Below, one piece after another: positions 29,561 to 31,986 of a DNA stretch of 62,128 nucleotides. The notes below the pieces were generated by a model. The model worked only from the letters and a program-made list of their open reading frames with translations. It did not search any database and was not told where the DNA came from. Position numbers and translations under genes: made by a program. The first letter of the stretch is position 1. Every line of letters begins with the position of its first letter. Source of the stretch: Chthonomonadaceae bacterium (GTDB lineage Bacteria; Armatimonadota; Chthonomonadetes; Chthonomonadales; Chthonomonadaceae); the NCBI GenBank assembly GCA_027450145.1, contig DAIDKH010000016.1, positions 1 through 62,128 on the forward strand, written 5' to 3'.

Positions 29561-31027
29561 ATGAACACGAAGTTATCGTATTTGGTCGCTGTGTCACTTG
29601 CCGCGGCCACAGGGCATGCCGCGGTCGCACAAGGAGCTCCTGTGACTTTGAAAGTGAATGCTGGCAAAGTGTTGCAAACTGTTAGTCCCACTATGTTTGG
29701 AATTAATACCGCCGTGTGGGACAAGAACCTGGATGAGCCATATACAATCAACCGAATACGACAGATGGGAATAGGGATACTAAGGTTTCCCGGAGGGTCG
29801 ACTTCCGATGGGTACCATTGGGAAGCAGGAATAAACGGCAAGAACGGCAGGCCGTCGCATCCCAATTTTGATGATTTTGCGCAGGTTGCAAAGGGAGCCG
29901 ATACGCAGGCGATGATCACCGTGAACTATGGAAGCGGTACAGCCTCGGAAGCGGCGGCCTGGGTAAAGTATTCCAATATAACTCGACATTATGGATTTAA
30001 GTACTGGGAGATTGGAAACGAGTGCTACGGAGGTTGGGAAGAAGACAAACACAAAATACCGCATGATCCCTACACGTACGCCTCCGAAGCTGCTAAGTAC
30101 ATCACCGAGATGAAAGCCGCAGACCCTACAATTAAGGTGGGTGTGGTGGTGGAAACCGGAGAAGACGCGTACGCGAATAATAAGGACCATGCCGCAATTA
30201 ACCCTGTTACCGGAGTGACGCATTACGGTTGGACTCCAGTGGTGCTGAGTACCATGAAAGCTCTGCATGTGTTACCGGATTTTCTCATTTACCATAGGTA
30301 CGAGCAGGCACCTCACCACGAATCCGACGCTGCTTTGTTGCAGGATGCCAAAACCTGGAATAAGGATGCGGCTAATCTTGAGATGATGAAGCGCGATTAT
30401 CTAGGTTCCGCAGGTAAAAAGATTCAAATTGTCTGTACTGAGAACAACTCCGTTTACAGTAACCCGGGCAAGCAGACGACTAGCCTCGTAAATGCTTTGT
30501 ACCTTGCAGACAGTGTAGGTAACTTGTTGAAATCGCCCTTCAGAACCTGGATTTGGTGGGACCTGCGCAACGGTGTAGACACAAGTAATAACCTTAGTTC
30601 TAGCCTATATGGATGGCGGCCATATGGTGACTACGGTGTTCTACAATTGAATCGCGATGAATACCCCACGTTCTACGCGTTTAGAATGCTGAAGCATTTT
30701 GCAAGAGGAGGGGACCGCATAGTGGACGCAGTCAGCAGTACCGATATGGTAGGTGCCTTTGCGTGTTTGCGAAAAAACGGGGATTTGGCCCTCCTGCTCA
30801 TTAATAAAAGTCCCAATAACATTCTAAGGGATCATGTTGAACTGCGCGCATTTAAACCCGTTGGTGGCGCGACAGAATACTTTTACGGCATACCACAGGA
30901 CGATGCCGCAAAGAACGGAAAACCTGAACACGGCGTCCAACGGAAGGCATTTAATGCCTCAGGTGCGGAGTTCTCCATCAGCCTGCAGCCGTACTCTCTC
31001 ACTACCGTCGTGTTGCATGAGCGCTAA
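29561..31027 (+). CDS. Secreted alpha-L-arabinofuranosidase-like glycosidase (GH51-type)
   Basis: 488 residues with signal peptide (YLVAVSLAAATGHAAVAQ). The TIM-barrel motif ILRFPGGSTSDGYHWEAGI, acid/base Glu154 in YWEIGNECYGG and nucleophile Glu294 in VCTENNS fit clan A family 51 enzymes. A C-terminal beta domain with ALLLINKSPNN follows. Probably releases arabinose from plant hemicellulose outside the cytoplasm. The start has AGGAAG/GAGGG upstream. It stands alone, 145 bases after the dacA operon and upstream of the infC promoter. Confidence 0.88.
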   Translation: MNTKLSYLVAVSLAAATGHAAVAQGAPVTLKVNAGKVLQTVSPTMFGINTAVWDKNLDEPYTINRIRQMGIGILRFPGGSTSDGYHWEAGINGKNGRPSHPNFDDFAQVAKGADTQAMITVNYGSGTASEAAAWVKYSNITRHYGFKYWEIGNECYGGWEEDKHKIPHDPYTYASEAAKYITEMKAADPTIKVGVVVETGEDAYANNKDHAAINPVTGVTHYGWTPVVLSTMKALHVLPDFLIYHRYEQAPHHESDAALLQDAKTWNKDAANLEMMKRDYLGSAGKKIQIVCTENNSVYSNPGKQTTSLVNALYLADSVGNLLKSPFRTWIWWDLRNGVDTSNNLSSSLYGWRPYGDYGVLQLNRDEYPTFYAFRMLKHFARGGDRIVDAVSSTDMVGAFACLRKNGDLALLLINKSPNNILRDHVELRAFKPVGGATEYFYGIPQDDAAKNGKPEHGVQRKAFNASGAEFSISLQPYSLTTVVLHER

Positions 31028-31095
31028 ATTACGTTGGGTGCAACTACAGGGCAGTGGCAGCATGCTACTCTGCAGGTATTTGCCTGAGCGGTTGC

Positions 31096-31125
31096 TTGAC
31101 AAGAGTTTAGACCGAACTGTATACT
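31096..31125 (+). promoter_or_regulatory. Sigma70 promoter of the infC operon
   Basis: Consensus TTGACA (31096-31101), 18-base spacer, TATACT (31120-31125). A leader of about 80 bases precedes infC. Confidence 0.8.
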
Positions 31126-31209
31126 ATATGCCTGTGTGAGGTGACGTGTACAATTTCCAGATGCACGGGCAATATCGTCAGTGCACTTTTACTAGTACAG
31201 GGGTGACCT

Positions 31210-31740
31210 ATCAACAAAGATTTTCGCGTTAACGAGCAAATATTGCGTGGTACCAAGGACGTTCGAGTACGTGACGTCCGCCTGATCGATGAAACTGGCC
31301 AGGCTCTTGGAATTGTGAGTGCACGAGATGCACTTGCCATGGCAGTTGAAAAGGGTCTCGATCTCATTGAAGTGGCTGCTACCGCTCAGCCTCCAGTCTG
31401 TCGCATAGGTGATTACGGCAAGATAAAGTATGAGCAGGGCAAACGAGAGCGCGAGCAGCACAAAAAACAGCGCCAGCAAGAGTTGAAGGGTATCAAGATG
31501 CGACCCGTTACTGCTGAGCATGATTTTATGGTTCGAGTTAAGCACGCTCTGGAGTTCATTGAAAAGGGTGATAAAGTCAAGATCACCATTCAGTTCAAGG
31601 CGCGAGAAATTACACATCCAGAAATTGCGCGAAAACTGATGGACAGGATGACCGAAGCGCTTGCGGAGAAGACGGTCGTAGAAAAGCCCGCATCCATTGA
31701 GGGCAAATTTATGACAATGATCGTAAGCCCAAAATCTTAA
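31210..31740 (+). CDS. infC: Translation initiation factor IF-3
   Basis: Binds the 30S subunit and checks start codons and initiator tRNA. The longest frame with a standard start begins at TTG 31243 (MRGTKDVRVRD). That omits the conserved IF-3 N-terminus. The in-frame codons before it read ATC AAC AAA GAT TTT and encode INKDFRVNEQILRG, the canonical IF-3 opening, with GGGGTG six or so bases before the ATC. I therefore call ATC 31210 as the start, giving 176 residues. Rare infC starts (ATT in E. coli, ATC in Myxococcus) are the basis of IF-3 autoregulation. First gene of infC-rpmI-rplT-pheS-pheT. Confidence 0.95.
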   Translation: MNKDFRVNEQILRGTKDVRVRDVRLIDETGQALGIVSARDALAMAVEKGLDLIEVAATAQPPVCRIGDYGKIKYEQGKREREQHKKQRQQELKGIKMRPVTAEHDFMVRVKHALEFIEKGDKVKITIQFKAREITHPEIARKLMDRMTEALAEKTVVEKPASIEGKFMTMIVSPKS

Positions 31741-31770: not shown

Positions 31771-31986
31771 ATGAAAGCAAAAGTGAAAGTCAAGCTGAAA
31801 ACCCGCAAGACTGCGGCTAAGCGGTTCTCGGTAACGGGGACCGGCAAACTTATGCATGGTAAAACCGGCTTGAACCACCTAATGCGTAAAAAAGACCACA
31901 ATCGTCGCCGAAATCTACTCGCAGACACTACGCTTGATAAGGGCAACGAAGTGCGCATTTCGCACATGATGGGCGAAGGCCACTAG
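31771..31986 (+). CDS. rpmI: 50S ribosomal protein L35
   Basis: 71 residues, highly basic, with the L35 signatures KTRKTAAKRFSVTGTGK and KKDHNRRRNL. It lies 30 bases after infC in the classic order. The N-terminus is slightly longer than in E. coli. Confidence 0.97.
   Translation: MKAKVKVKLKTRKTAAKRFSVTGTGKLMHGKTGLNHLMRKKDHNRRRNLLADTTLDKGNEVRISHMMGEGH

Follow-up and report, generated by a model that had tools for sequence, protein, structure and literature searches.

Judged from sequence and comparison, translation of infC, which encodes initiation factor IF-3, almost certainly begins at ATC 31210 in the window (the whole stretch of 62,128 nucleotides analysed here, from a Chthonomonadaceae MAG), and the joint reading, that it begins there under an E. 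coli-like IF3 feedback, is very likely. That IF3 autocontrol operates at this infC is, taken by itself and by analogy, probable. Non-AUG infC starts are already in print (PMC5472188, PMC13009471): infC starts with ATT in E. coli and with ATC in Streptomyces and is autoregulated (PMC5472188), and that of S. aureus starts with AUA, has a predicted extended Shine-Dalgarno (SD) sequence and was detected by Ribo-Ret (PMC13009471). The start in the window is a further case of this known non-canonical infC start and is ordinary in kind; what the analysis adds is a phylum-wide count of infC starts and a lead to ACG starts.

The infC start region of the window

The features around the start are as follows.

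31200..31206, + strand: Shine-Dalgarno sequence GGGGTGA, with one G-U pair, 6 nt from the last G of the GGAGG equivalent (31203) to ATC
31204..31206, + strand: in-frame stop TGA inside the SD, read from the sequence
31210..31212, + strand: ATC, proposed start codon, from the in-frame stop close upstream, the SD and AUH at the same codon in relatives
31210..31740, + strand: infC, IF-3, 176 aa, stop TAA at 31738-31740; TIGR00168 192.8 bits; IF3_N and IF3_C
31243..31245, + strand: TTG, rival start (165 aa) of ATG/GTG/TTG gene callers, judged to be internal Leu codon 12

Positions 31199-31245 read A GGGG TGA CCT ATC AAC AAA GAT TTT CGC GTT AAC GAG CAA ATA TTG. The TGA lies in frame two codons before ATC and thus excludes an in-frame start further upstream. 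Between this TGA and TTG 31243 no in-frame ATG, GTG or TTG was found, and the AUH codons (AUC, AUA or AUU) in frame there are ATC 31210 and ATA 31240. TTG 31243, 11 codons into infC, is the first in-frame ATG/GTG/TTG, and the open reading frame based on it has 165 instead of 176 aa, so the 11-residue loss that the initial annotation had ascribed to ATG/GTG/TTG-based calls is exact.

Profile search identified a complete IF-3 in frame 31210-31740 (TIGR00168, 192.8 bits against a cut-off of 60), with both PF05198 (IF3_N) and PF00707 (IF3_C) above their gathering scores in the product. The TIGR00168 score was 192.8 bits for the ATC form and 193.3 bits for the TTG form, and Pfam likewise expressed no preference. 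The family HMMs are blind to the choice of start because the matched stretches begin at residues 15-17, and support for ATC therefore comes from the relatives and the SD.

Pairing of the 17 nt at −20 to −4 of ATC with the 16S tail yielded −10.7 kcal mol−1; of 3000 random 17-mers drawn from the window, 66 did as well or better. Among the 34 other non-overlapping long ORFs of the window, each allowed its best canonical start, a single one had an SD as strong as that of infC. The stretch upstream of TTG 31243 reached −2.2 kcal mol−1, matched or bettered by 2537 of the 3000 random 17-mers. For these energies the 16S tail GGATCACCTCCTTT was taken from a same-genus genome (G011), whose 16S ends in GGATCACCTCCTTTCT, and no 16S match was found in the window's own assembly. 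Two own-genome matches to GGNTCACCTCCTTN as the 16S tail, with GGGTCACC as the anti-SD, were rejected, as Rfam found no rRNA there; GGGTCACC was also discarded as the anti-SD of the organism, given an own genome without a 16S match and the GGATCACCTCCTTTCT of G011.

As in non-canonical infC starts of the E. coli type, a canonical codon is absent and an AUH codon stands at the conserved N-terminus, with an SD at the proper distance from it. The sequence, the relatives and the SD all bear out the initial annotation's view that ATC 31210 restores the IF-3 opening INKDFRVNEQ, and the coordinates and bases it gave for this start agree with our reading. Its statement that GGGGTG (31200-31205) 'directly' precedes ATC was right as to spacing and slightly loose in wording, since ACCT separates the two.

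Start codons in the family and the phylum

The family sample comprised 17 genomes including the window's own, of which 14 others had a readable N-terminus and were compared. The nearest named genomes were two MAGs labelled 'bacterium', followed by Chthonomonadaceae, Chthonomonas and Armatimonadetes MAGs. At the start position the 14 relatives carry ATC (9), ATA (3) or ATT (2) and never ATG, so that the alignment of N-termini and start codons proposed at the outset placed an AUH triplet at the same codon in every readable family member. At codon 12, the TTG of the window, they carry TTG (5), CTG (5), CTA (3) or TTA (1). In codons 2-11, 64 of 140 places depart from the window. Of these differences 51 are silent and 13 alter the residue; since only 15 of the 90 possible single changes in these codons are silent (75 are other), this excess indicates coding constraint. 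By this measure, the stretch of 11 codons that ATC opens and ATA closes behaves as coding DNA.

Across the phylum, infC was present in 273 of 291 genomes. Start regions of 247 genomes were read, of which 244, from 43 families, were usable; G010, G014 and G178 were left out as their N-terminus was missing (matches from query residues 59, 13 and 51; contig edges). Candidates were all in-frame ATG, GTG, TTG, ATT, ATC, ATA and CTG codons in an interval opening at the upstream stop (or at −40 codons) and ending four codons short of the conserved Asn; of these, the one with the best SD at 4-11 nt was picked. This SD rule was written after some starts had been viewed (among them those at 35 of 80 named loci plus the window) and was first applied to 155 of 157 loci; some assemblies occur both as a named (L) locus and as a G genome (L002 and G011, for example).

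The picks were ATA in 134 genomes, ATC in 71, ATT in 27, GTG in 2, TTG in 2, CTG in 1, ATG in 1 and none in 6. Thus, AUC, AUA or AUU was picked in 232 of the 244 genomes and in 39 of the 43 families, and in the wrong-frame control AUH made up 57 and 52% of the cases with a pick, against 232 of 238 in frame. In 184 of the 244 the interval contained no canonical codon; counted here are G217 and G218, both misanchored, as well as three genomes with ACG. The six rows without a pick are G217 and G218 (ATA by eye), G190 at a contig edge, and G020, G248 and G249, which carry ACG.

Canonical codons, and in one genome CTG, were picked in some members of the phylum, so the weak infC start does not hold throughout. 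In G009, which belongs to the same family as the window, a GTG three codons before its ATC overlaps the SD of that ATC and is picked by the rule; GTG was also picked in G177 (f18), CTG beside an ATA in G237, and an ATG 30 codons before Asn in G239. In the f44 genomes L204 (G274) and L205 (G275), both with TTG as the pick, infC apparently starts at TTG, or at a CTG two codons earlier; a loss of the AUH start in this family is possible.

The neighbouring rplT and rpmI served as controls, at loci long enough for both genes (21 and 20 families). The canonical codon closest to where the start was expected was ATG in 91 and GTG in 1 of 92 rplT loci, and ATG in 86, GTG in 10 and TTG in 3 of 99 rpmI loci. 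This control shows that a canonical codon is available there, and it misses some true rpmI starts: in the window, the GTG closest to that position stands downstream of rpmI's own ATG 31771. The SD rule picked 88 ATG, 1 GTG and 3 AUH in the 92 rplT loci, and 72 ATG, 10 GTG, 8 CTG, 2 TTG and 7 AUH in the 99 rpmI loci; its AUH picks in these genes indicate that the rule carries some error.

A literature search for Armatimonadetes together with initiation codon found no paper. An arXiv survey by Gvozdjak and Samanta of genes preferring non-AUG starts reportedly names infC.

Candidate ACG starts in other families

In L190 (G248), L276 (G249) and L143 (G020), the interval that opens at the in-frame stop and ends four codons short of Asn contains neither NTG nor AUH. 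In G248 and G249 (both f39) the frame runs TGA-NNN-NNN-ACG from its stop, and it is devoid of AUH and NTG as far as the conserved Asn; in G020 (f5), known from a single contig of 3,589 bases, an ACG follows GGAGG at 7 nt, and the first AUH or NTG of the frame is a GTG immediately preceding Asn. In the 109 genomes whose SD contains an in-frame TGA, the place of this ACG is taken by ATA in 71, ATC in 21 and ATT in 4 (96 of 109); the other 13 hold the two ACG of G248 and G249 and 11 other codons, five of these 11 being from the window's family, where ATC stands one codon nearer. G248 and G249 differ at 14% of 177 nt of the gene start and at 22 of 100 upstream bases, and ACG is present in both.

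The gene preceding infC in G248 is thrS, as judged by a C-terminal fragment (HGTP_anticodon; best NCBIfam match thrS, 82.4 bits, below the whole-protein cut-off), and its stop TGA lies inside the infC SD. The preceding-gene fragment of G249 resembles it by eye and likewise ends in a TGA inside the infC SD. In f39, reinitiation after thrS could aid a weak ACG start.

Genes for tRNA-Met with a CAT anticodon and a GGG/CCC anticodon stem are present in G248, G249 and G020; with this anticodon in all three, reading of ACG would involve a mismatch at the middle position. A match to GGGCTCGTAACCC in G248 and G247, considered as the anticodon stem of an initiator tRNA whose CGU anticodon could read ACG, was dropped when ARAGORN found no tRNA in the G248 locus L339; L332, a different G247 match, also contained no tRNA.

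It is tentatively suggested, at slightly less than even confidence, that what selection preserves on infC in Armatimonadota is the weakness of the start rather than AUH, and that the codon has drifted to ACG in two families. None of the literature matches listed concerned a bacterial infC with an ACG start, which is weak evidence of absence. If true, a bacterial chromosome would here naturally carry a gene that starts at ACG.

Operon context, autocontrol and alternative readings

The gene order in the window is infC-rpmI-rplT-pheS-pheT, with the following features around infC.

31096..31125, + strand: predicted sigma-70-type promoter TTGACA-18-TATACT (11 of 12), from the promoter scan
31771..31986, + strand: rpmI (L35), ATG start; TIGR00001 65.1 bits
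32071..32451, + strand: rplT (L20), ATG start; TIGR01032 152.4 bits
32525..33550, + strand: pheS, from the TTG of the ORF list; TIGR00468 286.3 bits
33566..35656, + strand: pheT; TIGR00472 604.3 bits

For pheS, GTG 32552 behind AGGAGA appears a likelier start than TTG 32525. The gene upstream of infC (29561-31027) has a weak arabinosylfuranosidase match (45.8 bits against a cut-off of 625), and no thrS match was found in it. We take the E. coli order to be thrS-infC-rpmI-rplT-pheS-pheT and do not regard it as a defining feature of the mechanism.

The promoter scan found two promoter-like sites against a mean of 1.7 in shuffles and is thus not significant alone; the hexamers of 31096-31125 are the same in L002 and L003, and similar ones precede L005-L009 by eye. 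The predicted promoter suggests that infC may be the first gene of a separate transcript, whose leader would measure about 78 nt. A hairpin, TGCAC...GTGCA (31162-31185), occurs in the infC leaders of the window, L002 and L003, with no compensating changes visible among the three, and different hairpins are predicted in the leaders of L004 and L006. A small frame from GTG 31146 to TAA 31232 overlaps the infC SD and start. Leader folds were not significantly stable (z = −1.38 for 31132-31225 and z = +0.27 for 31132-31260). No Rfam family at E ≤ 1, including the L20 leader of the Bacillus infC operon type, was found in 31028-31260, and at gathering score the whole window yielded two tRNAs only.

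By analogy with E. coli, where infC autoregulation is well established, a CAU initiator tRNA would read AUC with a third-position mismatch, the strong SD would keep the infC mRNA on the 30S subunit, and IF3 would destabilise the mismatched initiation complex. Scarce IF3 would then allow infC to be translated and plentiful IF3 would repress it, a negative feedback. A strong SD plus a weak codon, kept on infC over most of the phylum, is what such feedback would need, and retention of a weak start on infC, beside an rplT with ATG or GTG in 92 of 92 loci, fits E. coli-like IF3 autocontrol, in keeping with the autoregulatory circuit that the initial annotation proposed. In an alignment to chain 8jsg_A, the window's IF-3 has Glu at the position that we take to be E. 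coli Arg116, a residue implicated in IF3 fidelity; its discrimination need not equal that of E. coli.

Other starts for IF-3 were weighed against ATC 31210. Initiation at TTG 31243, with the preceding 33 nt as leader, would have in its favour that this is the first in-frame ATG/GTG/TTG and that the 11 residues are not needed for a match to either IF-3 domain; its SD of merely −2.2 kcal mol−1, its replacement by CTG, CTA or TTA in 9 of 14 relatives and the coding-like evolution of those 33 nt make it highly improbable. ATA 31240 is also an in-frame AUH codon, yet it adjoins TTG 31243 and shares the poor upstream stretch (−2.2 kcal mol−1), and the coding constraint on the codons before it leaves this start with next to no probability.

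Two further explanations concern what the start is for. The ATC start could be real but merely hold IF3 expression low, IF3-dependent feedback being unimportant in the lineage: non-canonical starts alone cut yield in reporters of cvfC1, ccpN and citZ (PMC13009471). A weak SD could achieve the same, yet the SD is strong and 39 of 43 families retain AUH; moreover, a strong SD with a weak codon would, by E. coli precedent, make initiation IF3-sensitive, and the low-expression explanation is considered unlikely. Still less probable, and quite remote, is modulation of infC initiation by the GTG 31146-TAA 31232 frame, in the +1 frame behind GAGGTGAC. Although the frame is open and GAGGTGAC identical in the window, L002 and L003 (by eye), GAGGTGAC is absent at the corresponding place in 8 other aligned leaders, it would stand as an SD only 4 nt from GTG, and the changes between the window and L003 are silent and replacing alike.

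With initiation at ATC 31210 under E. coli-like feedback as the preferred reading, the window can be set beside known systems. E. coli infC (AUU, IF3 translational autocontrol) likewise has an AUH start on the IF-3 gene and is likewise followed by rpmI, rplT and pheST, whereas the window has AUC instead of AUU, lacks an adjoining upstream thrS and has its own predicted promoter, and its feedback is proposed by analogy. Streptomyces infC, in a different phylum, shares the ATC start and the same misannotation problem (PMC5472188). In S. aureus, AUH also stands behind a strong SD, but there the codon is AUA and was detected experimentally, and the window has AUC; among the literature consulted, this is the nearest experimentally observed parallel (PMC13009471).

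The proposed start corrects the N-terminus of an essential factor, which ATG/GTG/TTG gene callers clip by 11 residues, and would add a little-studied phylum to those with an IF3-sensitive start. Moreover, the phylum offers a natural series of start codons (AUA, AUC, AUU, rarely GUG or UUG, and possibly ACG) before SD sites, which may be useful for asking what IF3 selects against.
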